Shown here: positions 27,571 to 46,875 of the stretch, piece by piece
Numbering within the stretch: position 1 is the first letter of the stretch
How the letters are laid out: every line of letters starts with the position of its first letter
From: a virus
IMG/VR virus record: IMGVR_UViG_3300010151_000018
Span: 1 to 48,991 of that record
Strand: one strand, 5' to 3'
Length of the DNA stretch: 48,991 nucleotides
The notes under the pieces: generated by a model
The model's input: the letters and a program-made list of their open reading frames with translations, nothing else
Told to the model about the DNA's origin: nothing
The model's database searches: none
Position numbers and translations under genes: made by a program

Positions 27571-27578
27571 AACATCTC

Positions 27579-29759
27579 CTATGCGCTCGGTACATCTACA
27601 CTAAATGAGTTGTTAGCAACTAGTAGATACAAATTACCAGGTACCATATTACCTATTCTATTGCTGTTAAACCTTGGCCACCATACTAACCCAGTGTTCA
27701 GATCTTTAAGTTGGGTGATGGCTGCTACATGTTCTGCAAATATTTCTTCAGGATTTAGTTCACGGTTAACAGGTACAGGTAAATAATTCTCTCCTGCCAC
27801 TATGTTATATGTCGGGTGTATCATAGTATTACCTGGTATTCGTAGATTAAAGCTCTGTAGAGTATTTATTTCATCTAACCATTCAATAGTATACCCTGTT
27901 TGTATATCATAATATATATCTCCTACATTTTCTGTTGGTGAATATACTATTTCCTGTGTTGAAGCGTTTCTTATCTGTTTAATATACTTACCGATAGTAT
28001 CAGGAGTGATGGGTACCTCATTGTTATGACCTGAAGCTTCAAATGCTTTTGAGTAGTTTTCAAATATATATTTAACAGTTGTATTAGAGTTATCAATCCA
28101 GCTAGAGAATACACTCTTGAGCGATATAATTGTGTTTACATCTATATTAATTTCTTGATACTGATTCTCTAATACTACAGGTGGATTAGATATATTAACA
28201 GTATTACTTACTGGTATGGTAAATGCTTCGTGACATCTGAGTTGATATCCTTGACCTGGCAGCATTTGTCCCATTCCATTAAATTCAAATTCTGGCCACC
28301 ATACATGAGCGTCATTATCTTTTAGTAGTTGCACTACATCATGTAGCCCTTCAAATAATACTTCGGGGTAAATAGAATTTATAAACGGGTAAGCTATGAT
28401 ATTCCAACCTTCGATCATTTCCATAGTCATTGATTGAATTATAGGTCCAGTAATTTGCAATTGACATAGCTGGTGCGTTCTGACTTGATATCCTTCATTA
28501 GCATTCCAAGAACCAATTCCCTGGAAGTCAAATTCAGGCCAATATACGTCTGCATTATTGTTTTTAACGATATGTATATAGTCAACAATATCCTCAGGTG
28601 CAATAGTATTACCATGTTGATCTCGCAAACATTCCTTAAATATTTCTCTCACGTCTCCATCACCGATATTACTAACATCAATATATGTTGATATTATATT
28701 CCACCCCTCAATCAGAGTTATAATTTGTGTATCTATTTCATTAACTGTATCTGTACTAGGATATATACATAATCCACTCTCTTGATCTGCATTTGCATTG
28801 TAATTTAGAGCTGCGGGATCCATACAACCTATAATTGGATCTCCATATTCACAAGTGTAATCATTAACATTAGCAGTGGGATCATAATTTATAGCAGTAG
28901 GATCTGTACAACCATAAACTGTATCTGGTGTATAATTACATGTCCCATCATCTATTGTTGCTGTAGAATCATAGTTATTAGCTGTTTCATCGGTGCAACC
29001 GAGTATTGGTGCAGGTACGTACTCACAGCTACCGTCATCAATTTCAGCTAATGGGTTGTAAGTATATGATTCTGGATCTGTACATCCATATACTGGTAAG
29101 TACCCCTGTGGATCTGAAGTTATTTCATAGTCACCTGTTGTACCACTAGTACTAGGATCTTCTGATTCGTCAAAATCTAGCGACCACTCTAAATAGGTAC
29201 TTACTTCATCTATAGGTACCGGTGGTGTAGCCGGTAAGGATGATGCACTAGCAATTGATCCTGATGCAAAATCTTCGTTCGGTAATGTACATCTTGTAAA
29301 TCCCCAATTAGTAGCAACAGTTGGACCTGTATAGTCAGGGGTTCTGATGACTCCCTTAAACGTGCAGTAGGTTAATTGTGTATCTCCAGGTAACGCTGCT
29401 GCATCATATATTATATTATTTTCAGTAGTACTTGTTGATATTTGCAAATCACTTCGATTACTCGGTGGAAAATGGAAATAGTTCTCACCGATTCTCACAG
29501 TTTCAATGTCTTGTTCCCAAATCATATGATTTTCAATCAAAGAATCCATGTTGTCGGTAATACTGGATTTAAGCGATACAATATTCGCGGTATCCATAGT
29601 GCGTATGTTGAAATTACCTTTTACTATTACACGAATAAGATTCGGCATTGAGTGAACGTATTGCGAAATCTCTATATCACCATTATTAATATGTGGCCCT
29701 AGAACAGTATTAATAAATTCTTGCTTAGAGATTTCTTTAATTATTATTGTATATATCAT
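27579..29759 (-). CDS. Virion protein with GCTD..DGSC repeats and GWN modules
   Basis: A 726-residue protein. Residues 225-333 hold four cysteine-paired repeats of about 24 residues (GCTDPESYTYNPLAEIDDGS, and three more), a pattern I know from marine Bacteroidota surface proteins. The C-terminal ~380 residues carry three or four modules with GWNII, a (V/I)xxLKDNxAxVWWPEFEFNG-type strand and a PGQGYQLR end, separated by Leu/Ile-rich strands. These are typical of surface or secreted beta domains. The N-terminal 220 residues are unfamiliar. AGGAGG lies nine bases before the start. It sits between the 2762-aa fibre and the subtilase; I infer a tail appendage component, perhaps receptor binding. 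Confidence 0.75.
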   Translation of the reverse strand: MIYTIIIKEISKQEFINTVLGPHINNGDIEISQYVHSMPNLIRVIVKGNFNIRTMDTANIVSLKSSITDNMDSLIENHMIWEQDIETVRIGENYFHFPPSNRSDLQISTSTTENNIIYDAAALPGDTQLTYCTFKGVIRTPDYTGPTVATNWGFTRCTLPNEDFASGSIASASSLPATPPVPIDEVSTYLEWSLDFDESEDPSTSGTTGDYEITSDPQGYLPVYGCTDPESYTYNPLAEIDDGSCEYVPAPILGCTDETANNYDSTATIDDGTCNYTPDTVYGCTDPTAINYDPTANVNDYTCEYGDPIIGCMDPAALNYNANADQESGLCIYPSTDTVNEIDTQIITLIEGWNIISTYIDVSNIGDGDVREIFKECLRDQHGNTIAPEDIVDYIHIVKNNNADVYWPEFDFQGIGSWNANEGYQVRTHQLCQLQITGPIIQSMTMEMIEGWNIIAYPFINSIYPEVLFEGLHDVVQLLKDNDAHVWWPEFEFNGMGQMLPGQGYQLRCHEAFTIPVSNTVNISNPPVVLENQYQEINIDVNTIISLKSVFSSWIDNSNTTVKYIFENYSKAFEASGHNNEVPITPDTIGKYIKQIRNASTQEIVYSPTENVGDIYYDIQTGYTIEWLDEINTLQSFNLRIPGNTMIHPTYNIVAGENYLPVPVNRELNPEEIFAEHVAAITQLKDLNTGLVWWPRFNSNRIGNMVPGNLYLLVANNSFSVDVPSA

Positions 29760-29772
29760 AACTTCATGCCTC

Positions 29773-32700
29773 CTAACTTTGTGGCGGTTGACCTGCTAAT
29801 AGAAATGTTGATGTGTCAAGTGGTATCTTTACCCACTTATCATTATATGGTTGGAACATGTATAGTTCCCCTTCATTTTGATGTTCTGTTAATGTTTCTT
29901 GTATGTATACTAGGGATTCGTTTGTGCTTCCAAAATACGTACTTGAGTTATGTGCTGAGGGTGTAGTGTTAGCACCTAGTTCTGCAGAATAGTATCCACG
30001 GGTAACCTCAATGATATGCCAAGAAAATGATGATCCATCAGTTTCTGAAGTAACCTCATTAACATACATGTATTCACTACCAATTAATATCACGTCACCT
30101 TGAACAGGCCATCGTAATGATATACCATTTGATGCTAGCCACGCGTTATTATCTCCATCTCCATCATTATAATATTCAAGCTTGATGGTTGTTTCCGTCT
30201 CACTAATCGCGTTATTGTTTGCGATCCATACCCCTGTTAATGTACTATAGTCAGTTGTTACATCTAATACATCAGCTAAGAATGCCACTTCACCACCTCG
30301 TAGCGATCCAGTGTTGACAGCTTGTAGATCAGCAGATGATGTAAACATTATCGGTGTTACCAATGTATTAAATGGTAAACTAGATCGTGGGCTATCAACA
30401 ATTCCGTTTATTAATAATGATGGTGTGTGAAATTCTATTTTAGAATCAGCATCTCTTGTAATTATGCGGACTAATTTTTCTGATGTTACATCTCGATTAT
30501 ATGTAGTTATTTCAGATGCAATATCTGTCGCGAGTGGTGTGCCATTCCATTTTAATACACCGTTATCATTATATAATGTACTTGTAGTATTATTTGGTAT
30601 ACCAGCTAGAGTTATCCCTCTACTAACAACATCATTATTAAATCTAGCTACATTGTCTACCCATAAATCAGACTGTACATATACTTCACCAATATTACCA
30701 TCTAAAGATAACGGGGATAGTTGCAATGTATAATTATTAGAAGTGATTATACCAGGCTCTTCTGAATCAATAAAGAACTCAGCTGAATTTGCTAATTTAA
30801 ATGAGCCAGAAACATATACATCTTGCTTAATATCTACATCATCATGTAATTCGATAGAGCTAGATACTGATAGGTGAGATGATGATATAAAAGCATCACC
30901 GGAATGGTTAATACCTAGTATTAACTTTTTAGATTCACTCTCAAACCTAATCTCAGGTAAACTTCCAGCTGATGCAGATAGATGAATCATAGCTTTAGGT
31001 ACAGCAGTGTTTATACCTAATCTCGGAATACCTCCTGTAAACGTAAACCAATCATGTGATAATTCGGTACCATACTCTAGATCTAATTCATTGTAATTAA
31101 CATCCATATAAGTGGATTGACCAGTTAATGAGAATGCAGTATATGGTAGTACTTGATTATCATATGAAGCAACGTCTGTGACGAGTGTTTTAACTAACTC
31201 ATCACTAGATGTATGTATACTAACAGATCCAGATATATTAAGGTCATTTATAGTAACCTTTTCTGAATCTACTGTAGTAAATATACCATCACCTGTACCA
31301 CTAATACCGGTTAACCTAGAGCCATCACCGGTAAATACCATTGCACTTATATTCCCAGCTGCTGTTATATTATCTGCTATTATATCACCAGCTGCTGTTA
31401 TATTATCAGCTGCTTGTACTGATCCAGCTGCAATTTTTCCAACTGTATATGTAGATTGTTTAGCGTCGATGTGCCCACTTGTTACAGTGTATCCTGAGTG
31501 GAATGTACTATCACCGGTTACTATAACGTTACCTGTGTGTATAGTATCACTCTCTACATCGTTAGCCCCTATTATACTAAATCTGCGGAGATCTAAATCC
31601 TGTGTAGCTTCGTGATTACCTAAATTATCACCTCCAGCGGTAATTGCAGCTAATGAATATGATATATCAGGGAATCCATCCAGCGCTAAATTACTAGCAG
31701 TAATATCATGACTTGCACTTATATTTCCTGATGCACTTATATTTCCTGATGTAATTATATTTCCTGTACTAGCGAAGGTGTTACCAAAGATTACATCACC
31801 TTGTATAAACGAAGATGCAGATATTGTTCCATCTACTTGTACATTACCTCCAAGAATAGCAGCTGATCCATCACTGTCAATTGCGTTAAGTATAAGGCTG
31901 TTTGCAACTATACCACCTTTCACATCTATACTTGCAAGTGAGGCTGTTCCGCCTGATATTACAAAGTCACCACCAGGAGGTTTTATACCTGTAAGTTTAG
32001 ATCCATCACCATAAAAATATGGAGCTGATATGGTATCGCTTGCGCTAATCGTACTTGCTGTAAATGGTCCTGAAGCGTGTAGTGTTGATCCTGTTAATGT
32101 TGTAATTGCATCTTTTAAGTATACTGCTCTACCATCTGATAATGTAAATATAATATCCTCGCGATTAAAATCTGCGTCTGTGACATGCGCGCCAGCTGGA
32201 CCTGTTACTCCAGCTGGACCTGTATTTCCTCTAGATCCCTGTGGTCCTACAGGTCCATTGAGACCTATAGGTCCTCGAATTTGGCCTACGTTCGACCAAG
32301 ATGTTCCGTTAAAAACTATACCTTCACCAGCTGTTGCATCTATTCCATTTGCATTACCAGTATCTGAACATATCCACATATGACCGGCAAGCATATCAGT
32401 TAAGCCAGTTATATATGCAATTGTACCTGTACCCTGTATTTCAGCTGAAGCTCCAGCTGCTCCAGTTGATCCAGTTGATCCTTGAGCTCCTGTACTTCCT
32501 TGACTTCCTTCAAATCCTCTCTCACCTCGAAGTTCAAGTCTAGCATCAGTTAATGTTACTTGGTTTGAATCACTATCAGTAAATACTATATCATCGTTAT
32601 TGAACGCTGCATCAATTATACTTGGACCGGCTGTTCCTTGAGCTCCAGTTGATCCTTGAGCTCCAGTTGATCCAGTGTCTCCTTTAACACCGCTTGTACC

Positions 32701-35700
32701 ACTTGAACCATGTGATCCAGCTGCTCCAGTTGATCCATGTGAACCAGCTGCACCAGTTGATCCTGTATCTCCTTTTACTGGTCCGATTACTGTAGTCAGT
32801 GATGCATCTTGATGATTGAGGGTTATCATCCCTGTAGCGGAGTCATATATTGCATCTGCCCAACCGAGTACTGTTAGATCAGTGATTGAACTCCAGGTTC
32901 CACCACTTTTCCTAAATATTTTATCTGTTGATGTATCGTAATAAAAATCATTGTTACTACCTCCTGCATCACCAGGTGTAGCACCTCCGCTATACCACTG
33001 TGTACCTGCGATTCCATCTGTTCCACTTGTACCACTTGATCCAGCTGCACCAGTTGATCCAGTTGATCCTGTGTCTCCTTTAGATCCTTGTGGCCCTGTA
33101 GATCCATCATCACCTTTAGTTCCTTGAGGTCCCGTAGATCCTTGCGGTCCTGTAGATCCTGTATCTCCTTTAACACCACTTGTTCCACTTGAACCACTTG
33201 ATCCGTGAGAACCAACTGCTCCAGTTGATCCTACATCTCCTTTAGATCCACTTGTTCCACTTGTTCCATGAGATCCAGCTGCTCCAGCTGCTCCAGTTGT
33301 TCCACTCGATCCACTCGTTCCACCTGAACCAGTTGATCCTGTGCTTCCTTGAGATCCTATTGGTCCTTCTGGGCCTATAGGTCCTCGAATAGCTCCTATG
33401 TTTGTCCACTCTGCACCATCCCATACAATACCATTACCAGGAACAGCAGTTATATCTCCTACAGTTGCAGAATCGGATGCTATATACATATCACCAGCTG
33501 ATAGGCCTGCTGGATTTAGATCAATTATGTCAATTAGCCTTTTTGTTCCTTGAATTAAGGTAGATGCTCCATCTGCTCCACTTGTACCACTTGAACCATG
33601 TGATCCAGCTACTCCAGTGTCTCCTTTAGTTCCTTGTAATCCAGTTGATCCGGTTAATCCTGTAGATCCTTGCGGTCCTGTAGATCCTGTATCTCCTTTA
33701 ACACCACTTGTTCCACTTGATCCGTGTGTTCCACTTGATCCGCTTGATCCGCTTGATCCGCTTGTACCATGTGTTCCTTGAATTCCTTGTTCTCCTGTAG
33801 ACCCTTGATCTCCTTTAGTTCCACTTGTTCCGCTTGATCCATCTGTTCCACTTGATCCATCTGTTCCACTTGTACCATGTGTTCCTGTAGATCCTTGAAT
33901 TCCTTCTATTCCTTGTAGTCCTTGAATTCCTTGAATTCCAATTGGTCCTACGTCACCTGTATCTCCTTTAACACCGCTTGAACCACTTGAACCACTTGTT
34001 CCATGTGTTCCAGCTGATCCTGGATCACCTTTAACTCCACTTGAACCACTTGAACCGCTTGATCCGTGAGATCCATCTGCACCGGTTGATCCTATATCTC
34101 CTTTAGATCCACTTGTACCACTTGTACCATGTGATCCAGCTGATCCAGTTGATCCAGTTGATCCAGTTGATCCTTGTAGTCCAGTTGATCCTTGTGGTCC
34201 AACAGGACCTCGTACAGCTCCTACATTAGTCCAGGTTGTACCCCACACAATACCATCACCAATAACAGCTGATATTCCATTTGCTTCAGCATTATCTGAA
34301 CATATCCACATATCACCAGCTGTTAGATCTTCTTGATCTAACCCAGTTATATATGCAATTGTACCTGTACCCTTAACTGTAGTAGCTGCTCCGTCTACAC
34401 CACTTGTACCATGTGATCCAGCTGCTCCAGTTGATCCAGGTAATCCTGTAGATCCTTGTGGTCCTGTAGATCCAGCATCACCTTTAGTTCCTTGTGGTCC
34501 TATAGGTCCTTGAGATCCATCCACCCCACTTGTTCCGCTTGATCCATCTGTTCCGCTTGATCCATCTGAACCTGCATCACCTTTAACTCCACTTGTTCCA
34601 CTTGAACCATGTGAGCCATCTGAACCTGCATCACCTTTAGTTCCTTGTGGTCCTATAGGTCCTTCTATTCCTTGAATTCCTTGAATTCCTTGAATTCCAA
34701 TTGGTCCGTCTTGCCCAGTTGATCCTGTGTCTCCTTTAGATCCTTGTGGTCCTTCAGGTCCTCGTGGTCCTTGAATAGCTCCTACATTAGTCCACCTACC
34801 TCCATTGTATACAATACCATCACCAACTTGAGCAGATACTCCGGTTGCTGAAACAGCTTGGTTTGAACATATCCACATATCACCTGGAGATGCTTCTGAC
34901 GTATTTATATTTCCAGTTATATATTCAATTGTGCCTGTACCTATAATTGTAGTAGATGTACCATCTGCCCCAACTGAACCTGTTGATCCAGTTGATCCGG
35001 TTAATCCTTGAGGTCCTACTTCTCCTTGAATTCCTTGAATTCCTTGAATTCCAACTGCTCCAGTTGATCCTGTATCTCCTTTAACTCCACTCGTTCCACT
35101 CGTTCCGGCTTCTCCAGTTGATCCAGTTGATCCAGTTGATCCAGCGTCTCCTTTAGTTCCTTGTGGTCCTATAGGTCCTTCAGGACCCACCTCTCCTTGA
35201 ATTCCTTGAATTCCTTGAATTCCAACTGCTCCAGTTGATCCTGTGTCTCCTTTAACACCACTTGTACCACTTGAGCCACTCGATCCAGCTGCTCCAGTTG
35301 ATCCAGTTGTTCCTATTGGTCCTTCTGGTCCTATAGGTCCTCGGATAGGTCCTATATTAGTCCACTCTGTCCCATCCCATACAATACCATTACCAGGTGC
35401 AGTTGCTTGCGCGTTAATAATTCCTGTATCTGATGTTATATACATATCACCATTTGATAATGTTGCTGTGTCTATATCATCAATCTCTTGTGTCGTTTTC
35501 GTTCCTTGGATGTAGGTAGACGCTCCATCTTGCCCAGTTGATCCGGTTAATCCAGTTGATCCGGTTAATCCTTGAGGCCCTACTTCTCCTTGAATTCCTT
35601 GAATTCCTTGAATTCCAACTGCTCCTGTTGATCCTGTGTCTCCTTTAACACCACTCGTTCCACTCGTTCCGGCTTCTCCAGTTGATCCAGTTGATCCAGT

Positions 35701-38061
35701 TGATCCTGCGTCACCTGTGTCTCCTTTAGATCCTTGAGCTCCTGTAGATCCTTGAGGTCCTACTTCTCCTTGAATTCCTTGAATTCCTTGAATTCCAACT
35801 GCTCCAGTTGATCCTGTGTCTCCTTTAACTCCACTCGTTCCACTCGTTCCAGCTTGTCCAGTTGATCCGGTTAATCCTGTTGAACCAGTTGATCCTGTGT
35901 CTCCTTTAGTTCCTTGTGGTCCTTGTGGTCCTCGTGGTCCCTGTATTTGTCCTACATTAGTCCACCCTCTTTCTGTACTATAAGCTATTCCGTCACCAGG
36001 ATCAGCTGAGACTCCACTCGCTTCTCCTGAATTAGTACATATCCACATATCACCAGGCTCTGGGTTAGGTAAACTAGTTATATATGTAATTGTATCAGAT
36101 CCTTTAATTTGAGTAGATGTTCCGTCTGCTCCTGCTGTCCCGCTTGATCCACTCGATCCATCTGTTCCACTCGATCCATCTGTACCACTTGTTCCACTCG
36201 ATCCAGTTGATCCTGCGTCACCTGTGTCTCCTTTAGTTCCTTGTGGTCCTATAGGTCCTTCAGGACCCACCTCTCCTTGAATTCCTTGTATTCCTTGAAT
36301 TCCAATTGGTCCTACGTCACCTGTGTCTCCTTTAACTCCACTTGTACCACTTGATCCATGTGATCCAGTTGATCCAGTTGATCCAGTTGATCCAGTTGAT
36401 CCTGTGTCTCCTTTAGTTCCTTGTGGTCCTATAGGTCCTTCAGGTCCTACTTCTCCTTGTATTCCTTGTATTCCTTGAATTCCAATTGGTCCTACGTCAC
36501 CTGTATCACCTTTAGTTCCTTGAGGTCCCGTAGATCCTTGCGGTCCTATAGGTCCTTGAATAGCACCTACATTAGACCAAGCTGATCCATCCCATACAAT
36601 ACCATTACCAGGGTTACCAATTACACCACTTGCATCACCTGAATTAGTACATATCCACATATCACCTGCTACTAGATCTGCTGAAGGTAAACTAGTTATA
36701 TGTTGAATTGTATTAGATCCTTTGATGAAAGTAGATGCTCCATCTGCTCCACTTGTACCGCTTGAACCATGTGATCCATGTGAGCCATCTGAGCCATCTG
36801 AGCCATCTGATCCTGCTTCTCCTATGTCTCCTTTAGATCCTTGTGGTCCTGCAGGACCTACAGGTCCTTCTATTCCTTGTAGTCCTTGAATTCCTTGAAT
36901 TCCAACTGCTCCTGTTGATCCTGTGTCTCCTTTAACTCCACTCGTTCCACTCGTTCCAGCTTGTCCAGTTGATCCAGTTGATCCTGCGTCACCTGTGTCT
37001 CCTTTAGTTCCTTGTGGTCCTATAGGTCCTTCAGGACCCACCTCTCCTTGAATTCCTTGAATTCCTTGAGTTCCAACTGCTCCAGTTGATCCTGTGTCTC
37101 CTTTAGTTCCTTGTGGTCCTATAGGTCCTTGAATAGGTCCTACATTAGACCAAGCTGATCCATCCCATACAATACCATTACCAGGTATAGTATAGTAACC
37201 GTTAACATCTCCTGTATCAGATGCTATATACATATCACCATTTGATAAGGTACCTGTATCTAGGAGATTAATCTCTTCTATTGTTTTCGTTCCTTGGATG
37301 TAGGTAGACGCTCCAGCAGGTCCTGTACTTCCTTGTATTCCTTGAATTCCAGGTGGTCCAGGGTCTCCTTGATCTCCTTTAGATCCTTGTGCGCCTGTTG
37401 ATCCTGCTGATCCAACTATAGGTCCAATTGTATGCTGAAAAGCATCGGAACGAGTAATCACGAGATTATCACTGTCAAAGTTTATGTCTTGTATACCAAC
37501 TCCTGGAGATCCTGCTGATCCAGTATCTCCTTTAGTTCCTTGTGGACCCACGTATAGGTCTTCTGGAAATGTAAAAGTTATAACAGTCCCTGAACCTTGT
37601 GGAGTAAAGTCTACTGTTGGGGTACCTCCTAATGGACCTACAGTAACATCTGGATTAACTGATATATCAGGTGTTATATCTGCAATAAAATCTTCATAGG
37701 TAAGTCCTTCGGGATCCTCTTGTAAGGTTAACCATATTTCGAAAGCAGATAAGCCGTCAATACCGTCAGAAGGTGTTAAATCATCTCCTGTATCTACAGC
37801 AATCTTTGCCCAGTTTTCAACTACATCAAAGTTTGTTGGATCACTGCCTGTATACATGTGGTAGAATCCAGTTGCTTCATCTTTCACAATACATCCAGGA
37901 GATGCGTGATTACTAGTTATAATAGTAGCTACCTCGGCAATGGTAGGTACTACCCTAACGTTACCTTCAATACTATTAATATGTACTAAAGGAGCTGTAC
38001 CACCGTATATGTATATACCAGCACCGTAATTAATACTATAATGGCTTGAATCCATTCCCAT
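29773..38061 (-). CDS. Giant collagen-like fibre protein, 2762 aa
   Basis: The N-terminal ~170 residues are a non-collagen head that ends in GLSAFEIWLTLQEDPEGLTY, a segment common at the start of phage collagen-like proteins. From about residue 175 to 1955 the protein is Gly-X-Y repeats (GPQGTKGDTGSTG, GIQGIQGIQGE, GSSGTSGVKGD), broken by eight copies of a ~58-residue module with GDMWI or GDMYI, then GDGIVW or GNGIVWDG, then W(S/T)N(V/I)G. From about 1960 to the end is a beta-rich tail with ASGNISASGNISASHDITAS and VFTGDGSRLTGI motifs seen in phage fibre tips. A trimeric triple-helix fibre with a C-terminal receptor-binding tip is the natural reading. It has AAGGAG nine bases upstream and touches the 882-aa gene. 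Thr/Ser are very frequent in the X and Y positions. Confidence 0.88.
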   Translation of the reverse strand: MGMDSSHYSINYGAGIYIYGGTAPLVHINSIEGNVRVVPTIAEVATIITSNHASPGCIVKDEATGFYHMYTGSDPTNFDVVENWAKIAVDTGDDLTPSDGIDGLSAFEIWLTLQEDPEGLTYEDFIADITPDISVNPDVTVGPLGGTPTVDFTPQGSGTVITFTFPEDLYVGPQGTKGDTGSAGSPGVGIQDINFDSDNLVITRSDAFQHTIGPIVGSAGSTGAQGSKGDQGDPGPPGIQGIQGSTGPAGASTYIQGTKTIEEINLLDTGTLSNGDMYIASDTGDVNGYYTIPGNGIVWDGSAWSNVGPIQGPIGPQGTKGDTGSTGAVGTQGIQGIQGEVGPEGPIGPQGTKGDTGDAGSTGSTGQAGTSGTSGVKGDTGSTGAVGIQGIQGLQGIEGPVGPAGPQGSKGDIGEAGSDGSDGSDGSHGSHGSSGTSGADGASTFIKGSNTIQHITSLPSADLVAGDMWICTNSGDASGVIGNPGNGIVWDGSAWSNVGAIQGPIGPQGSTGPQGTKGDTGDVGPIGIQGIQGIQGEVGPEGPIGPQGTKGDTGSTGSTGSTGSTGSHGSSGTSGVKGDTGDVGPIGIQGIQGIQGEVGPEGPIGPQGTKGDTGDAGSTGSSGTSGTDGSSGTDGSSGSSGTAGADGTSTQIKGSDTITYITSLPNPEPGDMWICTNSGEASGVSADPGDGIAYSTERGWTNVGQIQGPRGPQGPQGTKGDTGSTGSTGLTGSTGQAGTSGTSGVKGDTGSTGAVGIQGIQGIQGEVGPQGSTGAQGSKGDTGDAGSTGSTGSTGEAGTSGTSGVKGDTGSTGAVGIQGIQGIQGEVGPQGLTGSTGLTGSTGQDGASTYIQGTKTTQEIDDIDTATLSNGDMYITSDTGIINAQATAPGNGIVWDGTEWTNIGPIRGPIGPEGPIGTTGSTGAAGSSGSSGTSGVKGDTGSTGAVGIQGIQGIQGEVGPEGPIGPQGTKGDAGSTGSTGSTGEAGTSGTSGVKGDTGSTGAVGIQGIQGIQGEVGPQGLTGSTGSTGSVGADGTSTTIIGTGTIEYITGNINTSEASPGDMWICSNQAVSATGVSAQVGDGIVYNGGRWTNVGAIQGPRGPEGPQGSKGDTGSTGQDGPIGIQGIQGIQGIEGPIGPQGTKGDAGSDGSHGSSGTSGVKGDAGSDGSSGTDGSSGTSGVDGSQGPIGPQGTKGDAGSTGPQGSTGLPGSTGAAGSHGTSGVDGAATTVKGTGTIAYITGLDQEDLTAGDMWICSDNAEANGISAVIGDGIVWGTTWTNVGAVRGPVGPQGSTGLQGSTGSTGSTGSAGSHGTSGTSGSKGDIGSTGADGSHGSSGSSGSSGVKGDPGSAGTHGTSGSSGSSGVKGDTGDVGPIGIQGIQGLQGIEGIQGSTGTHGTSGTDGSSGTDGSSGTSGTKGDQGSTGEQGIQGTHGTSGSSGSSGSSGTHGSSGTSGVKGDTGSTGPQGSTGLTGSTGLQGTKGDTGVAGSHGSSGTSGADGASTLIQGTKRLIDIIDLNPAGLSAGDMYIASDSATVGDITAVPGNGIVWDGAEWTNIGAIRGPIGPEGPIGSQGSTGSTGSGGTSGSSGTTGAAGAAGSHGTSGTSGSKGDVGSTGAVGSHGSSGSSGTSGVKGDTGSTGPQGSTGPQGTKGDDGSTGPQGSKGDTGSTGSTGAAGSSGTSGTDGIAGTQWYSGGATPGDAGGSNNDFYYDTSTDKIFRKSGGTWSSITDLTVLGWADAIYDSATGMITLNHQDASLTTVIGPVKGDTGSTGAAGSHGSTGAAGSHGSSGTSGVKGDTGSTGAQGSTGAQGTAGPSIIDAAFNNDDIVFTDSDSNQVTLTDARLELRGERGFEGSQGSTGAQGSTGSTGAAGASAEIQGTGTIAYITGLTDMLAGHMWICSDTGNANGIDATAGEGIVFNGTSWSNVGQIRGPIGLNGPVGPQGSRGNTGPAGVTGPAGAHVTDADFNREDIIFTLSDGRAVYLKDAITTLTGSTLHASGPFTASTISASDTISAPYFYGDGSKLTGIKPPGGDFVISGGTASLASIDVKGGIVANSLILNAIDSDGSAAILGGNVQVDGTISASSFIQGDVIFGNTFASTGNIITSGNISASGNISASHDITASNLALDGFPDISYSLAAITAGGDNLGNHEATQDLDLRRFSIIGANDVESDTIHTGNVIVTGDSTFHSGYTVTSGHIDAKQSTYTVGKIAAGSVQAADNITAAGDIIADNITAAGNISAMVFTGDGSRLTGISGTGDGIFTTVDSEKVTINDLNISGSVSIHTSSDELVKTLVTDVASYDNQVLPYTAFSLTGQSTYMDVNYNELDLEYGTELSHDWFTFTGGIPRLGINTAVPKAMIHLSASAGSLPEIRFESESKKLILGINHSGDAFISSSHLSVSSSIELHDDVDIKQDVYVSGSFKLANSAEFFIDSEEPGIITSNNYTLQLSPLSLDGNIGEVYVQSDLWVDNVARFNNDVVSRGITLAGIPNNTTSTLYNDNGVLKWNGTPLATDIASEITTYNRDVTSEKLVRIITRDADSKIEFHTPSLLINGIVDSPRSSLPFNTLVTPIMFTSSADLQAVNTGSLRGGEVAFLADVLDVTTDYSTLTGVWIANNNAISETETTIKLEYYNDGDGDNNAWLASNGISLRWPVQGDVILIGSEYMYVNEVTSETDGSSFSWHIIEVTRGYYSAELGANTTPSAHNSSTYFGSTNESLVYIQETLTEHQNEGELYMFQPYNDKWVKIPLDTSTFLLAGQPPQS
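32190..37540 (-). repeat. Collagen Gly-X-Y repeat tract with interspersed modules (coding)
   Basis: This is the repeat part of the 2762-aa gene. At DNA level near-identical blocks recur, notably tandem GGAATTCAAGGAATTCAAGG units coding for GIQGIQGIQG and GATCAACTGGA units coding for GSTGSTG. Eight 58-residue modules interrupt it near 37140-37310, 36560-36740, 35950-36120, 35350-35520, 34785-34960, 34215-34385, 33390-33565 and 32280-32450. Confidence 0.9.
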
Positions 38062-38062
38062 A

Positions 38063-40711
38063 CTAGCTTACTCCTTGTATCCTTACATAATCATTTGGTA
38101 CAAAATTACCTTGTAAATTAGATACATAAATATCAAACTTTAAAGTTTGACCGTTTACTGTATATTCGAAATCATCTTGTATTTTAGTTATTGCAGTAAT
38201 CATCGGTGTAACAGGATTTGATTCAAATCTTATATCCGTAATAGTGCCGTAGTATGATGGTATTGCTATGTAATTATACAGAGGTCCACCTGGTGCATAT
38301 AGATCCGTTGGATCACTTGTAGATAAAGCGTTTGTATCAAATACTGCTACTTGAGCTGATATACTATTAAGTAGTGCTGTAAAAGCAGCAGCATCAGATT
38401 CACCGTCTAGCTCAGTTGCATATTGTCCGAGATACTTCGGTGTTGATACATTTATTGTTAGTACATTTACTGTAGGGAAACTAAAGTCGGTAGCCATATA
38501 CGTCGCCTTTACATACATTCTATGTCCTTCTTGTGTATTAACAAACGTATCTGGATCTTTTTCTAAAATCTCTTCTGATGATAAAGTAAATGGTGATGCC
38601 TGTATCATTCCACCAGCAGCGGAGAATGGTTGTACATCTTGTTCGGATGTTACAGTCTGAAGCATTCCAGAAACATTTTCAGCATTAAATTGTTGAGTCC
38701 AATGTATACTGTTAACAGCTATTGAGTTACCATATTGAATTGTTTGGTTGTTAGTTACAGTTGAATTATTACTATCTCGTGCTGTGAAGGTGTGTAGTAA
38801 CCCTACAGCTGCTACTTGTGGAAGAATAAACATTTTTCGTAGTATCGACTCAATCGTATCACCAACATTAAATATATCTCCTTCTTGTATACCTCCTACA
38901 CTATAGTCACATTCAATAGCCTCTTGCAATAATCCCGCGCCGCTTCCAAGACCATCTTGACCACTAGGGATTGTAAAATTGATTACTGGATTTGCGTCTG
39001 TACTCGAATCATCATGTTCGACGGCTGGTAAGGTACCTGGGAGTCCTGCTGTTACTGGTCCAAATGATATACTAGGTGTTGAACCTGCTGCTCCAGTTGT
39101 TCCACTTGTACCACTTGATCCATGTGTTCCTGCTGCTCCAGTTGCTCCACTTGTACCACTTGATCCATCTGTACCATTTTGACCTCTAACATCTAGTGTA
39201 GAGAATTCTAAACCGTCATTTGAAGAGAAGTCTATTGTCCCATATGCTGAATTATACTGTCCCTGAGTCCATCCTTGACCACTTGTACCATTTGTTCCAC
39301 TTGAACCACTAGTTCCACTGGATCCACTTGTTCCACTCGAACCACTAGATCCACTTGTTCCTTCTGGTCCGACCGCTCCACTTGTACCACTAGATCCACT
39401 TGTTCCTTCTGGTCCAGTTGCTCCACTTGTTCCACTAGATCCACTTGTTCCAGCTGTTCCTGTTCCACTTGTTCCACTCGAACCACTTGTACCACTCGAA
39501 CCACTGGTTCCGCTTGATCCGGAGGTTCCACTTGAGCCGCTCGTTCCACTTGAACCACTAGTTCCGCTTGATCCACTTGAACCACTTGTACCACTCGATC
39601 CACTTGAACCATTTGTTCCGCTTGTCCCATCCAATCCTCGTATAGTACCTATATTAACCCAAGCACCGGCGGCAGTATATACTATAGCATCTCCTGCAAA
39701 TACACTTTGTCCAGAATCCATAGTACCAGCTGTACTAACAATCCATATATCACCTGCTGTAGGACCTACTGTATCTTCAATAACAGTAATAGTAGCTGTA
39801 CCTTTAACTCCTAATACACTCGTACCATCTGCTCCATTTGAACCACTTGTTCCACTTGAACCGCTTGTTCCGTGTGTTCCTTGTGGTCCTATATTTCCTT
39901 GATTTCCGCTTGTTCCACTTGATCCACTTGATCCACTTGAGCCGCTCGTTCCACTTGATCCACTTGATCCACTGGTTCCGCTTGAACCGCTAGTTCCGCT
40001 TGAACCGCTAGTTCCGCTTGAGCCGTCTGTCCCGTTAGATCCACTTGTTCCGCTTGAACCACTTGAGCCACTCGTTCCACTTGATCCTGAAGTTCCACTT
40101 GATCCACTAGTTCCATTTATTCCACTCGTTCCACTTGATCCTGAGGTTCCACTTGATCCATCTGTTCCATGTGTACCATTGGCACCTTTGAGATTACCGG
40201 TAGTGAATCCCAGGCCATCATTAGATGCGAAGGATACTTGACCAGTACCTCCGTTATAACCTGTACCAGCAACTATCCAACCTTTACCGCTCGATCCATC
40301 TGTTCCGTCTGATCCACTTGTCCCGTGAGAACCAGCTTCTCCTGTTTGACCTTTAACATATCCTGCAGAAATGGGAGTACCACTATTACTTATAGTTATT
40401 TGTAGATACCCATCACTATCAACAGTTGCAGATGAGATAGTATTACCAGCATCAAGAATTGTAGCTAATTTTACCCAATTATTATTAACATCTCCCCATT
40501 GCTCATCTGTAGTAAGTCCGTGTGTGTATATATAATACTCACCCTCAGTATTAACAATAGTACCTGTGTGTCGAATATACGATTCCATCGCGTTTAAGTA
40601 AGCTGTACTGAAAGCTGGCAGTGTGTGTACACCACCCTTTATATTATTTGTATCAACTACAGGCATCCCATCTACAGATCGCTGTATTATTGAAGCTACA
40701 TTTACTGCCAT
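38063..40711 (-). CDS. Collagen-like fibre protein rich in Gly-Thr-Ser / Gly-Ser-Ser
   Basis: An 882-residue protein. Residues about 1-135 form a globular head (TAYLNAMESYIRHTGTIV and ISAGYVKGQTGEAGSHG). A repeat region to about 560 is almost only (GTS)(GSS)n units such as GTSGSSGTSGSSG, with one GDIWIV...GDAIVY...WVNIG module in the middle. A C-terminal beta-rich domain of ~300 residues begins near GLLQEAIECDYSVGGIQEGDI. Proline is scarce, so stability of the triple helix may depend on Thr/Ser, perhaps glycosylated. The start has AGGAG seven bases upstream, and the stop is followed one base later by the 2762-aa gene start region. It shares the C-terminal organisation (FxxGDTIESILRKM) with the 633-aa neighbour, so these are related fibres. 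Confidence 0.85.
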   Translation of the reverse strand: MAVNVASIIQRSVDGMPVVDTNNIKGGVHTLPAFSTAYLNAMESYIRHTGTIVNTEGEYYIYTHGLTTDEQWGDVNNNWVKLATILDAGNTISSATVDSDGYLQITISNSGTPISAGYVKGQTGEAGSHGTSGSDGTDGSSGKGWIVAGTGYNGGTGQVSFASNDGLGFTTGNLKGANGTHGTDGSSGTSGSSGTSGINGTSGSSGTSGSSGTSGSSGSSGTSGSNGTDGSSGTSGSSGTSGSSGTSGSSGSSGTSGSSGSSGSSGTSGNQGNIGPQGTHGTSGSSGTSGSNGADGTSVLGVKGTATITVIEDTVGPTAGDIWIVSTAGTMDSGQSVFAGDAIVYTAAGAWVNIGTIRGLDGTSGTNGSSGSSGTSGSSGSSGTSGSSGTSGSSGTSGSSGTSGSSGTSGSSGTSGTGTAGTSGSSGTSGATGPEGTSGSSGTSGAVGPEGTSGSSGSSGTSGSSGTSGSSGTNGTSGQGWTQGQYNSAYGTIDFSSNDGLEFSTLDVRGQNGTDGSSGTSGATGAAGTHGSSGTSGTTGAAGSTPSISFGPVTAGLPGTLPAVEHDDSSTDANPVINFTIPSGQDGLGSGAGLLQEAIECDYSVGGIQEGDIFNVGDTIESILRKMFILPQVAAVGLLHTFTARDSNNSTVTNNQTIQYGNSIAVNSIHWTQQFNAENVSGMLQTVTSEQDVQPFSAAGGMIQASPFTLSSEEILEKDPDTFVNTQEGHRMYVKATYMATDFSFPTVNVLTINVSTPKYLGQYATELDGESDAAAFTALLNSISAQVAVFDTNALSTSDPTDLYAPGGPLYNYIAIPSYYGTITDIRFESNPVTPMITAITKIQDDFEYTVNGQTLKFDIYVSNLQGNFVPNDYVRIQGVS
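39060..40190 (-). repeat. Gly-Ser-Ser / Gly-Thr-Ser repeat tracts (coding)
   Basis: Two long low-complexity tracts code for GSSGTSG units, about 40190-39840 and 39630-39060, separated by one module. The nine-base period and the purine-rich sense strand produce long overlapping frames in other phases that are not genes. Confidence 0.85.
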
Positions 40712-40720
40712 TTTATTCTC

Positions 40721-42622
40721 CTATGTTATAGTCAACCGGTCTAGAGCTGTCATTTGTCGTTCTTGTTCTGATATATACACATCTACGTTATAAGTAAAAT
40801 CAGCTGTACCAACACTATTTTGAATTGGTATATCTTCTGCTAATAATGTCCATGTTGGATTTGGTATCTGCAGTGAAAATCCATTACCATCTACTATATT
40901 TGCGATATCTGGTATTTGAGACGGATACACTATATATGTAAAATTATCTTTTGTCTGTGTTTCTTCTGTACCATATACAGTCCAATTAACTGCGGCTGTT
41001 AAGGTAGAACGCTGTGACTTAATAGTATTTACCATTGTTTGGATTGCAGCATTATCTATTACACTATCACCTGTTAGTATTATTTCAGGATATCCACCTA
41101 GATATGCGTACGCTTTAAAAGCTGCTGTTTTAGTTTTAGGTGTTCCACCACTCCATGTTAATCCCATAGTTACTCCTCCAATAGTTGATCGTGTAATTGT
41201 CTGTGGTGTAAAATATGCTGGACTCGTATCACTTACATCGATCAATGTAGGTACTCCGAAATCAACATCAGCATTTGTACTAGATATCCCACCAATTGTT
41301 ACACCTTCTCCCGTTACAGTAAATACTACATTATCAATTTTCACGTCTGTACCTATTTCATTTTCTGTATATGATATTTCACTAGATCCTGTGTAGAATC
41401 CATCAAAGGCTAGTGCTGCAGGTATAGGTGGTTGTGATTGACTTAGCATTGCTCTCAATACCGACTCAATTGTTGATCCAGCTGCAAATGTATCTCCATT
41501 TGAAATATAACCAACAGAGTAATTAGTTTGATAGTCTGCCCAAAGTGATGCGGTGATATCAGCATATAATAGCCCGGAGCCTATAATATCGCCGTCACCT
41601 GGAGGTCCTTCATCTCCTACCTCTCCTTGATCTCCCTTCAATGATGCGAGAAATGCTGCTGCATCTCCTACATTACCTTGCTCTTGCCAAACTTCGAGCG
41701 CTGATTGTCCTGGTATTCCGCTAGGTATTCCAAATTGCAATGATGCATTTGACGAATCAGATCCCATCTCCGTTACTGTAGGGGACTGTAGATGTGATAA
41801 TCCTACTGTTGAGTGAACTGTTACTGTACCAGCTGGACCTGTTCCCCCGGTTGGTCCTTCTGGGCCTTCTATATCACCTAAATTTTGAACTGGAGTATCG
41901 CTGGTTAGTTGTACAAATAATTGAGTTCCGTCAAGATATATATTACTTATACCTACACCGTCAAAGTAATCAATACCCTTTACAGGAGTTGTACCGGACT
42001 CACCCTTTATTGATCCCACACTAGGTAGATAGGTACCATTTGATAAACCTAAAGTAAGCATTCCGGTATTTGAGTTATATGAAGCGCCATTAACTGAATT
42101 ACCTTGCAAGCCTTGTAGGCCCTGTGGACCAGTAACTGGTCCTGAGTTTATCCATTGTGCTCCAGTCCACGATATACCATCCCCGATAGAGCCAGATATA
42201 TTATTACCTTCATCACCTGTATTAGTTAATATATAAAAAGATCCTGTAGGTAGTGAGCCGGAATCAATTGTAGTAATATATTGTGAGGATGTCGCTGCTG
42301 TTACTACAAACGTTGTTCCATCCTGTCCGCGATATCCTCTGTTCCCTGTTGCACCTATAGGTCCATCAGCACCGGTATCCCCTAGTTTACCCTGTGGACC
42401 GGGCTCAATAACTTTTACAGTGTTTGTTCGAATAGTTTCTGTAGCTACCGTTGCAGTATCGCTAGAAACCGGAGTTATGGTAGTTACAGCTCCTTCATCA
42501 ATAATTACATTATTATCAGGAAGGTCAACAATAATTACTTGGCTAGCTAATTTACTATTATCTACAACCTCTATCCTACCTACCGGAATGGTAATTTTTA
42601 CTATGTTTGGTGTATCTGACAT
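40721..42622 (-). CDS. Short collagen-like fibre protein, 633 aa
   Basis: A 633-residue protein with several short Gly-X-Y stretches (GPQGKLGDTGADGPIGATG, GPQGLQGLQGN, GPEGPTGGTGPAG) and one copy of the shared module (GSFYILTNTGDEGN..GDGISWTGAQWINSGPV). The sequence GQSALEVWQEQGN matches the linker seen in phage collagen-like proteins. A C-terminal domain (about 370-633) begins DTFAAGSTIESVLRAML and resembles the C-terminal part of the 882-aa protein. The start lies one base after the stop of the 135-aa gene and has no ribosome site, so it is probably translated by coupling (TAATATG). It forms a cassette with the next two fibre genes. Confidence 0.85.
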   Translation of the reverse strand: MSDTPNIVKITIPVGRIEVVDNSKLASQVIIVDLPDNNVIIDEGAVTTITPVSSDTATVATETIRTNTVKVIEPGPQGKLGDTGADGPIGATGNRGYRGQDGTTFVVTAATSSQYITTIDSGSLPTGSFYILTNTGDEGNNISGSIGDGISWTGAQWINSGPVTGPQGLQGLQGNSVNGASYNSNTGMLTLGLSNGTYLPSVGSIKGESGTTPVKGIDYFDGVGISNIYLDGTQLFVQLTSDTPVQNLGDIEGPEGPTGGTGPAGTVTVHSTVGLSHLQSPTVTEMGSDSSNASLQFGIPSGIPGQSALEVWQEQGNVGDAAAFLASLKGDQGEVGDEGPPGDGDIIGSGLLYADITASLWADYQTNYSVGYISNGDTFAAGSTIESVLRAMLSQSQPPIPAALAFDGFYTGSSEISYTENEIGTDVKIDNVVFTVTGEGVTIGGISSTNADVDFGVPTLIDVSDTSPAYFTPQTITRSTIGGVTMGLTWSGGTPKTKTAAFKAYAYLGGYPEIILTGDSVIDNAAIQTMVNTIKSQRSTLTAAVNWTVYGTEETQTKDNFTYIVYPSQIPDIANIVDGNGFSLQIPNPTWTLLAEDIPIQNSVGTADFTYNVDVYISEQERQMTALDRLTIT

Positions 42623-43823: not shown

Positions 43824-45374
43824 TTAGTGAATAGTAACATTAACTTTACCATAGAATTCAGGACGAACAACTTTCTTCGCGTAGCGAGTCATTACACCTT
43901 TTCTAGGAGTGAAGTTTTGTGGATCATAAACCAGTGGAGTCATGATTAATGGAATATACGGCGCATAAACTGCTCCAGTTTCCAAGAATTGATTACCACG
44001 GAAGCCCATTAAGATTCCATCGTTAGTAGTACGATATGGATTCTTATAGATAGTATATCTATTAGCAAATGAACCAACTTTAGTTACACCAGCTGCAAAT
44101 TGTGACTTAGTACCATCTGTATCAGCAGCAAATCCTGGAATCGATTCTACGATAGAAGCAATTTCCGGCGACATTACTGCGAAGTTAGCACCACCACGCA
44201 TTGTACCTTTGTGAATTTGGTTAGAAACTTTCTGCATTTGGTAACCCAATGTTTGAGCCCAAGAACCGAAGTCGTAACGAGCTGTTGTACCAGTAGTAGC
44301 CTGTGTACCAACATATCCTTTCTCAGAACCAGAAAGTACAAACGTTTCACCTGTGTGAAGCGCTGCGTTATCTAGCATTGCAAGAATTTCAAGATCAATT
44401 TCCATTGATACATATTCAGAAAGCATTGAAGTTAATTCTGCTTCAGCATCAATTGAGTGATAAGCGTTTAAATCTTGAGCGAACTCTGGTGACCAAACAA
44501 CTTTCAATTTACGCGTTTTAGCAACAATTGCTTCATTTCTTAACTGAACATTCAATTCAGGAATTTTTAACGAAGTAACTGGATCACTTGTTTGATCCTC
44601 AAAGTCACCTCTGTTAGCAGATCCTTGTGCATTACGATCTTCATAGTATACTACCACTAAAGGTTGAGCAGCTGGAATGGTTTGGCTTAATGTAAAGTAT
44701 AAATCAGCACCATCTGCACTTACAGCAGTGTTATCTGTTACAATAACATCAGCTGAACCGTCAGCTGCTGATCTAGATACAACATAAGCTGCACCTGCTA
44801 AGTCACCGTCAATTCCTGTCATGTCAGAAGCACTGAAATTCATTATAGCATTATCACTAGCACCAGCTGTGTGTGTAATTGCTAACTCTTTTTTAGCAAG
44901 TGTAAATGCTGCTTTTGCACCATACTCACTACCAGAGTGTCCAGCAGCATTATATAAGCCACCTGCCGGTGTACTAGATGCAGAAGTGTTACCCATGATA
45001 TCAGTACCATTTACATGATTACCGTGATCTGATCCATATTTGAAATCTAACCAGAACACTAGTCCTGATGGTAGATTCATCGGTTGAACTGAAACGAATT
45101 CCTTCGCAAAGATCTCACCGAAAATTCTACGTACTAAAGGAAGAGCAACACCATTCCAGTCTTCACCACCGTTACCGGTATTAGAAGTAGCTTCTGAAAT
45201 AAGTTGTCGAGCCTGATTCTCTAAAAGGATTGCAGTATTATGCTTTTCATAATCTGTATCGATTCCTTCTAAAAGACCAGTCTTGTCCCATTTAGTAACG
45301 TATTGCTTAGTCTCATTCAACTGTAGTCGATATGTAGCGTCAGCATCGTTTAATAATTGAGAAATATTTGACAT
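43824..45374 (-). CDS. Major capsid protein (T4 gp23-like)
   Basis: A 516-residue protein, close to the 521 of T4 gp23. It has WNGVALPLVRRIFGEIFAKE followed by VSVQPMNLPSGLVFWLDFKY, and near the C-terminus TIYKNPYRTTNDGILMGFRG and GVMTRYAKKVVRPEFYGKV, all typical of the T4 capsid family. The motif LISEATSN near residue 61 fits the prohead protease rule (I/L-x-E), so cleavage after E61 is likely, like E65 of T4; this is inference. The gene follows the scaffold gene by 26 bases, has GGAG before the ATG and ends at a strong terminator. A prohead protease and portal are not in the window. Confidence 0.95.
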   Translation of the reverse strand: MSNISQLLNDADATYRLQLNETKQYVTKWDKTGLLEGIDTDYEKHNTAILLENQARQLISEATSNTGNGGEDWNGVALPLVRRIFGEIFAKEFVSVQPMNLPSGLVFWLDFKYGSDHGNHVNGTDIMGNTSASSTPAGGLYNAAGHSGSEYGAKAAFTLAKKELAITHTAGASDNAIMNFSASDMTGIDGDLAGAAYVVSRSAADGSADVIVTDNTAVSADGADLYFTLSQTIPAAQPLVVVYYEDRNAQGSANRGDFEDQTSDPVTSLKIPELNVQLRNEAIVAKTRKLKVVWSPEFAQDLNAYHSIDAEAELTSMLSEYVSMEIDLEILAMLDNAALHTGETFVLSGSEKGYVGTQATTGTTARYDFGSWAQTLGYQMQKVSNQIHKGTMRGGANFAVMSPEIASIVESIPGFAADTDGTKSQFAAGVTKVGSFANRYTIYKNPYRTTNDGILMGFRGNQFLETGAVYAPYIPLIMTPLVYDPQNFTPRKGVMTRYAKKVVRPEFYGKVNVTIH

Positions 45375-45400: not shown

Positions 45401-46300
45401 TTATAATAAACCAGCTAAATGTTTCATTCTATTAGCTAATTCGTTTGATTCAACAATTACTTCTTTCGAAGGTTTTGTTGATTTAATTGTTTTCGAAGCA
45501 AGTCCTTCTGCAATTTTACCTTTCGGTGCGTTATTGCTGAATGATTCAGTTAAAGTAGAGTAAACTAATTTTACTTCACGTAAGTTAGCCGCTCGATCAA
45601 AAGTTTCAATAACTTTTACTTTTTGCGTTTCACTTAAGTTGTTAGACTTGAACAATTTGTTAGAGAAAAGTAATTTTGCATTAAGCAAGTTTACTTCTTG
45701 AAGAGTTGATTGTAAAGATTTAATAGTAGCGTAAGCTTCTCCTAATTCTTTATCTTTATCTACTTCTTCGTCTTCTTCATCATCATGTTCATCTTCCTCT
45801 AATGATTTAATAATCTCATCGAGATTAAGTTCATCTTCAGTAAGTTCATCTTCTTCTTTTAATTCATCAGTTGATTCTTTAGTACCAATGCTATCAGATG
45901 TAGCAGCTTCGAATACTTCTTCGTCATCTTCAGCTGGAACTTCTTCTTCGTCCTCACCTTCTAATTCACGAATGATAGCTTCTAGCTCTAAATGATCATC
46001 ATCACCTGGTACTTCGTCGTCAGCAAATGGATCACCTGCTGCATCGTCAGCAAATTCTTCACCTGGTACTTCGTCAGCTGTTACATCTAACTCTTCTTCT
46101 CCAGCATTAATTGCTAAATCAACACCATCAACATCTTCTTCTTCTTCATCTTCATACATGTCTTCAGAAATTTTAGTTGATAACATTGATTGAAGTTTCG
46201 GAGTAAAAGCTTCTTCAAGTGCAAGTTTTGCATTTGCAATAGCAGTTTCACGAACAGCTTTAGCATCAGCGATTGCTTCTTTTAATAAGTTTTTTGACAT
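45401..46300 (-). CDS. Prohead core scaffold protein (T4 gp22-like)
   Basis: A 299-residue, very acidic protein with long Glu/Asp runs (MYEDEEEEDVDGVD and KSLEEDEHDDEEDEEVDKD) and a helical C-terminus that carries NLLNAKLLFSNKLFKSNNLS, then KVIETFDRAANLREVKLVYSTL. It ends LANRMKHLAGLL, a signature ending of T4-type scaffold proteins. These fill the prohead and are removed by the gp21-type protease; several (I/L)xE sites are present. The start has GGGAG six bases upstream and a ~100-base leader with two hairpins below a late-type promoter. It directly precedes the capsid gene. Confidence 0.88.
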   Translation of the reverse strand: MSKNLLKEAIADAKAVRETAIANAKLALEEAFTPKLQSMLSTKISEDMYEDEEEEDVDGVDLAINAGEEELDVTADEVPGEEFADDAAGDPFADDEVPGDDDHLELEAIIRELEGEDEEEVPAEDDEEVFEAATSDSIGTKESTDELKEEDELTEDELNLDEIIKSLEEDEHDDEEDEEVDKDKELGEAYATIKSLQSTLQEVNLLNAKLLFSNKLFKSNNLSETQKVKVIETFDRAANLREVKLVYSTLTESFSNNAPKGKIAEGLASKTIKSTKPSKEVIVESNELANRMKHLAGLL

Positions 46301-46505: not shown

Positions 46506-46820
46506 TTATACTGGTTTACCATCTACTATAGTAGTCCATGTTATGTCTTCCCAAAATGCCACCTCCTTCTTGTGCTGTAGCGCTTGGCGCCGTTTTGCAT
46601 CATTCATCTTTTTACGACGAGCGGTGGTAGGTTTAGTATATTCTGTACGAGCTCTTAGCTCTAACAGTATACCAGATTCTTTTTGTTGACGTTTGAAAAT
46701 TTTCAAACCTTTCTCTAAAGCGTAGGATGTACCATCCGGTATCTTTACACCTGATGGTTTTCCTGGATTAACGAAGTCTCTATTAGAGTAACGTTTCGGT
46801 GATCTACGATCTTTGTACAT
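46506..46820 (-). CDS. rpsU: Phage-encoded 30S ribosomal protein bS21
   Basis: A 104-residue basic protein. Residues about 33-82 align to bS21: LEKGLKIFKRQQKESGILLE followed by LRARTEYTKPTTARRKK, which shares the G(V/I)LxE(V/L)RxRxxYxKPTT core of E. coli S21. It has an N-terminal basic extension (MYKDRRSPKRYSNRD) and a C-terminal extension ending EDITWTTIVDGKPV, so it is longer than the ~70 aa bacterial form. bS21 sits near the anti-Shine-Dalgarno end of 16S rRNA. Phage copies have been reported in marine and freshwater phages. It is transcribed from a TATATTTAAGTAT-like promoter, has no Shine-Dalgarno site, and ends at a terminator. Confidence 0.92.
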   Translation of the reverse strand: MYKDRRSPKRYSNRDFVNPGKPSGVKIPDGTSYALEKGLKIFKRQQKESGILLELRARTEYTKPTTARRKKMNDAKRRQALQHKKEVAFWEDITWTTIVDGKPV

Positions 46821-46836
46821 AAATGTAATTTAGTTA

Positions 46837-46855
46837 TTAATACCTTAATATAAGA
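46837..46855 (-). promoter_or_regulatory. Putative promoter, TATATTAAGGTAT class
   Basis: The minus strand reads CTTATATTAAGGTATTAAT ending about 17 bases before the bS21 ATG. Over ~25 bases it matches the sequence before the polymerase gene with only a few changes. Confidence 0.5.
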
Positions 46856-46875
46856 AAAAGATTTCTAACTACCAA

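Follow-up and report, generated by a model that had tools for sequence, protein, structure and literature searches.

Previously, the ribosomal protein bS21 was connected with start-site choice in Bacteroidia. According to the accessible parts of McNutt et al. 2023 (PMC9976891), Tyr54 of Flavobacterium johnsoniae bS21 packs against A1534 and guides the 16S tail into its pocket, and the Y54A mutation, deletion of the C terminus or depletion of bS21 each raises Shine-Dalgarno (SD)-led output. These published data bear out the premise, made in the initial annotation of the locus described here, that bS21 helps to hide the anti-SD in Flavobacterium. The host rpsU gene, which encodes bS21, autoregulates through an extended and very strong SD of about -13 kcal/mol, and its translation falls to ribosomes that lack bS21; the same text also discusses whether bS21 is exchanged on the ribosomes of Bacteroidia in the course of an infection. 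Among viruses, bS21 is described as the commonest ribosomal protein gene, and a late ribosome takeover by phage bS21 was first proposed by Chen et al. 2022 (PMC9723584, accessible text), where it is also cited that bS21 of Pelagibacter phage HTVC008M enters E. coli ribosomes. SD use of the phage genes is not treated in the accessible text of Chen et al. (PMC9723584), and among titles and abstracts of the open-licence literature we recognised no work on how bS21-bearing phages use SD. Late takeover was thus already proposed in 2022; the split in SD use between a phage bS21 gene and virion genes, reported below, was not found in print.

We analysed a stretch of viral DNA of 48,991 bases, hereafter called the window, which is a far-T4 myovirus fragment covering mainly the virion module. 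It carries capsid, sheath, tube, baseplate and PhoH genes, nearly all on the minus strand (Table 1). The capsid protein is related to those of Flavobacterium phage immuto (48.6%), Microcystis phage Mel-JY01 (48.3%) and Rhodothermus phage RM378 (37.8%); in the match ranking immuto, Mel-JY01 and LR756508 come first, then RM378, and T4-like relatives reach 25-30%. The far-T4 phages, to which RM378, immuto and the Lake Pavin contigs belong (PMC4360716, accessible parts), resemble the window in their capsid. The window gave no Rfam match and no tRNA, and no photosystem gene was found in five records. The 299-aa acidic protein is kept in relatives, and a family search with it returned no match. Elsewhere in the window, positions 783-3836 encode a single 1017-aa protein with FkbM methyltransferase, GT4 and GT9 glycosyltransferase domains, and positions 27579-29759 encode a likely fibre protein that has no Pfam match and whose repeats follow the pattern GCTDPxAxNYxPxAxxDDGSC.

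Table 1. Features of the window relevant to SD use and the phage bS21 gene.
Feature	Position	Strand	Remarks
Source record	1-48,991		IMG/VR IMGVR_UViG_3300010151_000018; 48,991 bases, virus
96-aa gene, no assigned function	414..704	-	no SD; homologue in G006 (35%) also without SD
Virion module: baseplate, hub, tube, sheath, neck and fibre-like genes	7706..42622	-	SD sites on most
Tail tube protein	15925..16413	-	phrog_4542; AGGAG site
Tail sheath protein	16444..18555	-	tblastn to tail sheath proteins; AGGAG site
Major capsid protein	43824..45374	-	phrog_138; GGAG site
299-aa acidic protein, between capsid and bS21 genes	45401..46300	-	GGAG site
bS21 (rpsU-like), 104 aa	46506..46820	-	PF01165; remainder of the 46506-46855 interval is bS21 leader
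Arg77 codon, aligned with F. johnsoniae bS21 Tyr54	46590..46592	-	profile alignment; position derived from ORF start
bS21 leader, no SD	46821..46875	-	promoter-like TTG (46875-46873) N20 TATATT (46852-46847)
bS21 leader motifs	CTTATATT 46854-46847; TAACTAAA 46836-46829	-	compared with relatives

The bS21 gene lies between the genes at 46876 and 45401, two genes from the capsid gene, among virion genes and on their strand. The freshwater Bacteroidetes phages of Chen et al. also carry bS21 beside myovirus virion genes, but on the opposite strand, and all 61 of their bS21 proteins are aromatic at position 54, where the window protein has Arg77 (PMC9723584, accessible text). The core helices of the window protein are covered by PF01165 (39.5-40.2 bits against a cut-off of 27), a relative at locus L002 is 89% identical, and the closest PDB match, 9i5v_9, resembles F. 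johnsoniae bS21. The retained core and the Arg can be read directly from the alignment. At the Tyr54 column, 135 virus rows, some of them from loci that overlap and one from a duplicate of the window, have R in 61, K in 36, Y in 15, L in 14, F in 4, A in 3, H in 1 and a gap in 1, and the best 80 of 483 genome matches have Y in 79 and K in 1. Two further features set window-type phage bS21 proteins apart from that of F. johnsoniae, which lacks both: a basic extension at the N terminus and, in most of them, a tail at the C terminus bearing a conserved W-T motif.

We defined an SD site as a match of at least 4 nt to AAGGAGGTG at positions -20 to -4. Such sites precede 22 of 30 window genes, compared with 23% of 240 in-frame internal ATGs. 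With automatic ORF calls the count was 23/31, and virion genes exceeded the others (19/22 versus 4/9, Fisher p 0.027). The initial annotation had assigned strong AGGAG-type sites to nearly all virion genes; SD use holds for the 19, and the AGGAG type fits most but not all sites of the window because GAGGT, GGAG or AGGA sites also occur besides AGGAG, AAGGAG and AGGAGG. Most late SD energies are about -7 kcal/mol, weaker than the -13 kcal/mol of the autoregulated host rpsU (PMC9976891, accessible parts). The claim that bS21 and the 96-aa gene lack an SD was borne out, as neither has a match of even 3 nt (duplex energies of +2.3 and +1.0 kcal/mol, respectively), and the genes at 40721 and 42624 likewise have no clear SD. 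The PhoH gene (43033) looks SD-less from its TTG start, yet a GGAGG-type site precedes its first ATG. Because the lack of an SD on bS21 is conserved in related phages, it is beyond chance, and the original observation is confirmed in a stronger form than first stated.

SD use of this kind differs from that of phages of Bacteroidota, in which SD counts are low: 8/106 genes in phi14:2, 5/56 in 11b, 8/67 in P12002L and 20/100 in crAss001. The window is therefore unlike these phages, in which SD is avoided or goes unused. Among the far-T4 relatives, immuto, without bS21, avoids SD (15/210 genes, background 27%) and RM378 has no SD preference, both unlike the window; the long contig G015 has SD on 10/255 genes (17%). 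T4 (167/244, background 13%), Mel-JY01 (101/231, 12%) and HTVC008M (103/177, 22%) use SD. Across the 35 records searched, bS21 was present in 25, and all five low-SD records (G015, G018, G031, G032 and immuto) were without it; since the set was chosen partly by bS21, this association is only suggestive. Five SD-rich far-T4 contigs (G012, G016, G017, G019 and G020) have no detected bS21. The notion that phage bS21 always accompanies SD use was rejected by LR756508, whose bS21 carries Met at position 54 and in which 0 of 13 virion homologues have SD.

For comparison among phages, distinct bS21 proteins were sorted by eye into groups I-IV, leaving ungrouped 11 L-type rows and L065; starts lacking ATG fell back to GTG or TTG, and neighbours were genes within 6 kb. 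Group I, the window type with R or A at position 54, has SD on 1/25 bS21 genes versus 169/234 neighbours (binomial P 8e-13, ignoring kinship; 1/12 by 60%-identity clusters). Group II, with Y, F or H, is alike in having SD on 1/19 bS21 genes versus 127/205 neighbours (clusters 1/8). Group III, the Mel-JY01 type, has SD on 29/32 bS21 genes versus 176/252 neighbours, and group IV on 9/9 (-9.5 to -12.0 kcal/mol) versus 71/115. The nine group IV loci (L112, L117, L118, L122, L127, L131, L135, L138 and L144) carry very strong extended SD sites, like self-regulating host rpsU. Since group II combines an aromatic residue at position 54 with SD-rich neighbours, Arg cannot be the whole story, and the loss of Tyr54 as a general rule explaining SD use was rejected.

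These counts bear on the explanation that the missing SD serves only to free bS21 from the autoregulation seen in hosts or to keep its amount low and constant. Phage bS21 would then leave the anti-SD hidden or neutral, and the virion SD sites would matter through something else, for instance strong transcription late in infection or an altered initiation factor. Group II, with its SD-less bS21 genes and SD-rich neighbours, fits this explanation, as do the extended SD through which host rpsU autoregulates (PMC9976891, accessible parts), such a site being carried by group IV phage genes, and the contig G017, which is split in SD use without a detected bS21. The window bS21 gene, with no SD, differs from autoregulated rpsU. 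However, the explanation leaves the replacement of Tyr54 by Arg in the window type unaccounted for, and a search for another translation factor, limited to bS18, found none in 24 records. We consider it improbable.

The leader of the window bS21 gene has a promoter-like motif that fits sigma-70 and Bacteroidota spacing alike. In group I, 19/25 bS21 genes have CTTATATT or TTATATTA within 110 bases and 0/25 have ATATTTAT. In three long relatives (G001-G003), CTTATATT precedes 17/89 genes in SD-less segments versus 10/299 elsewhere; TAACTAAA precedes 5/51 SD-less genes versus 0/115 elsewhere in G001, and no gene of G002 and G003 has it. The window bS21 leader, with its TTG-N20-TATATT and both of these motifs, thus shares marks that are commoner in the SD-less segments. 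The late-type motif ATATTTAT or TATTTATA lies upstream of eight window genes, all eight with SD. The ATATTTAT(A) motif, which recurs before virion genes (14978-24000 and 43033), is probably a late promoter. Over seven contigs, SD sites occur on 9/34 genes with vegetative-type motifs versus 79/109 with late-type motifs; after motifs at most 22 bases from the start were dropped, the counts became 10/19 versus 58/73. The link between promoter type and SD is modest, and the timing of expression that we infer from it would have to be read with the same reserve.

The split extends along whole contigs in some relatives. In clustering tests, which ignore kinship, SD use was clustered in G001, G002 and G003 (each p <0.0005), and also in G021 (p 0.006), G022 (p 0.015), G017 (p 0.026) and cyanophage S-SKS1 (p 0.013); it was borderline in G011 (p 0.052), which is nearly SD-rich throughout, and in LR756508 (p 0.061, 240 kb of 484 kb). 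No clustering was found in T4, Mel-JY01, G024, immuto, G015, G006, G008, G016 or HTVC008M, the last of which also has a phage bS21 but uses SD uniformly along its genome (p 0.33). Two-state segmentation gave SD-less segments with SD on 6/51, 1/26 and 0/12 genes in G001, G002 and G003, respectively, versus 68/115, 82/130 and 33/54 outside them, the virion genes being SD-led. These segments consist of small genes and are probably early, judging from gene size and promoter type. A partial split, with SD-less and SD-led genes in one genome, is seen in G021, G022 and G017; no bS21 was found in the 152 kb of G017, and G016 has SD-rich virion genes with no bS21 detected. The closest long relatives, G006 (104 kb) and G008 (63 kb), are SD-rich throughout and have no SD-less segment; as both are incomplete contigs, their counter-evidence is weak but real.

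The SD-less segments of G001-G003 carry a second mark, an excess of A at -13 to -11 of +0.21 (95% 0.15 to 0.27), which is absent from the SD-led parts of the same contigs. The mark is +0.10 to +0.19 in six phages of Bacteroidia type (immuto, phi14:2, 11b, P12002L, crAss001 and, presumably of this type, G015), +0.11 in host genomes with Tyr54, +0.24 and +0.17 on group I and group II bS21 genes, respectively, and +0.13 in the SD-less part of G022. It is absent (-0.03 to +0.02) from T4, HTVC008M, S-SKS1, Mel-JY01, G024, RM378 and hosts with Arg54, and not clear in G021 (0.02) and G017 (0.05); the score of +0.41 on group IV bS21 genes is due to an A run before the SD. The two kinds of start region in these three relatives can thus be read from the DNA itself. 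An artefact of wrong starts or spurious small ORFs might be suspected, as starts were taken as the first ATG and some motifs in the promoter test lay too near the start. However, when the best of the first three starts was allowed (at or below -5 kcal/mol), the split survived, with 9/51 versus 58/115 genes in G001, 4/26 versus 82/130 in G002 and 1/12 versus 34/54 in G003. False starts would not leave a mark at so constant a place as -13 to -11, and in seven comparison phages no clear A mark emerged when SD-poor genes were selected by energy. Survival of the split and the fixed mark count against an artefact, which we regard as very improbable.

The host is the best single doubt on a switch. 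The initial annotation had suggested identifying it by a spacer match; there was no convincing match among 395 Bacteroidota genomes. In the same genomes, the capsid protein had no match at E 1e-20 (0/395), and a 19,219-base stretch of the window gave matches in 67 that seem short or of low complexity; neither outcome carries weight for or against a host. The best 80 of 483 genome matches to the window bS21 are nearly all from Bacteroidota, but a host call by bS21 similarity was set aside as these scores barely differ from those of other bacteria. Far-T4 viruses are predicted to infect marine Bacteroidetes (PMC7198788, accessible parts), though an earlier far-T4 study could not settle the hosts (PMC4360716, accessible parts).

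Promoters gave no further help. A Bacteroidota promoter pattern is TTG-N17-23-TAnnTTTG. It is enriched in crAss001, phi14:2, G015, Mel-JY01 and G024, and not enriched in immuto, P12002L, G001, G002, G006 or the window; immuto and P12002L are phages of Bacteroidota by name, and the absence of the pattern is uninformative on the host, and assignment by promoter type was dropped. In Mel-JY01 (PP395634.1; L308-L317), the pattern lies upstream of genes 22 times versus 1.1 expected, and because of this excess its recorded Microcystis host may be wrong, the true host being, for instance, a Bacteroidota companion in the culture.

Among the 395 genomes, 319 have a bS21 match, and seven (G073, G099, G124, G176, G348, G392 and G418) have two, the second of which may be either a paralogue or of phage origin. 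The best 30 loci have Arg at position 54 in 19 and Tyr in 11. We sampled stretches from 10 of the 11 Tyr54 and 10 of the 19 Arg54 genomes. All ten Tyr54 stretches were below their own SD background (18/169 genes versus 305/1178 internal ATGs), and the ten Arg54 stretches were mixed, with no SD avoidance (40/161 versus 176/952; G110, G137 and G040 use SD). Residue 54 and SD avoidance therefore go together in hosts, and because part of the Bacteroidota has Arg54 without SD avoidance, a host that reads SD in the normal way, the case named in the initial annotation as refuting the switch, is also conceivable for the window.

This observation opens the reading that the phage matches its host and switches nothing. 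The host, for example a Bacteroidota outside Bacteroidia, would have a bS21 with Arg or Lys at position 54 and a free anti-SD, which we think unlikely; the phage protein would copy that of the host and maintain or boost translation, and the virion SD sites would be ordinary, a view that we likewise doubt. The Arg54 loci and genomes above favour it, as do the missing SD-less segment in G006 and G008 and the phages Mel-JY01 and G024, which combine Bacteroidota-type promoters and SD use throughout the genome with a K54 or R54 bS21 whose gene has an SD. It leaves unexplained why window-type bS21 genes lack an SD (1/25) when those of the Mel-JY01 type have one (29/32), and why G001-G003 contain SD-less segments with an A mark that Arg54 genomes do not have. 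The A mark of G001-G003 suggests hosts of Bacteroidia type that hide the anti-SD as usual, and the bS21 of these phages carries Arg; a switch requires just this combination.

We tentatively favour, at a little under an even chance, a switch in which phage bS21 would take the place of the host protein in the 30S subunit and so alter start-site choice. The bS21 gene, with its vegetative-type promoter-like leader and an apparently SD-independent start region, could be translated by unmodified host ribosomes whose anti-SD is hidden, that is, by complete ribosomes, unlike host rpsU, which is translated by those without bS21 (PMC9976891, accessible parts). The protein keeps its core and has Arg where bS21 of Bacteroidia has the tail-turning Tyr54, the same position that controls anti-SD access in F. 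johnsoniae, where Y54A raises SD-led translation. If the window phage infects Bacteroidia, host ribosomes that take up the protein into 30S subunits would then expose the anti-SD, and such ribosomes would later prefer SD-led messages, namely the virion genes. The translation switch of the initial annotation is partly supported: Arg in place of Tyr54, the conserved lack of SD, the SD-less segments of G001-G003 with their A mark, the leader motifs shared with these segments, the tie of Tyr54 to SD avoidance in hosts and the predicted Bacteroidetes hosts of far-T4 viruses speak for it, while the lack of a host match, the unsplit G006 and G008 and Arg54 Bacteroidota that do not avoid SD speak against it. 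Group II, G017, G016, LR756508, the nearly SD-rich G011, the clustering in S-SKS1, the modest late SD energies, the clustering tests that ignore kinship and the weakened promoter link also count against it. We regard the switch as a good, still unproved explanation.

Here both halves of a possible switch, the ribosomal part and the favoured messages, are readable from sequence. The switch predicts that the phage protein, replacing host bS21 in F. johnsoniae, raises SD-led initiation. It is possible, though we hold this more tentatively, that a far-T4 lineage follows a two-stage programme in Bacteroidia, in which early genes and bS21 would be made by ribosomes with a hidden anti-SD and Arg54 bS21 would then allow SD reading of the virion genes. 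If so, the phage would restore SD-led initiation where the host has mostly abandoned it, and one small viral protein would change the start-site rule of host ribosomes.
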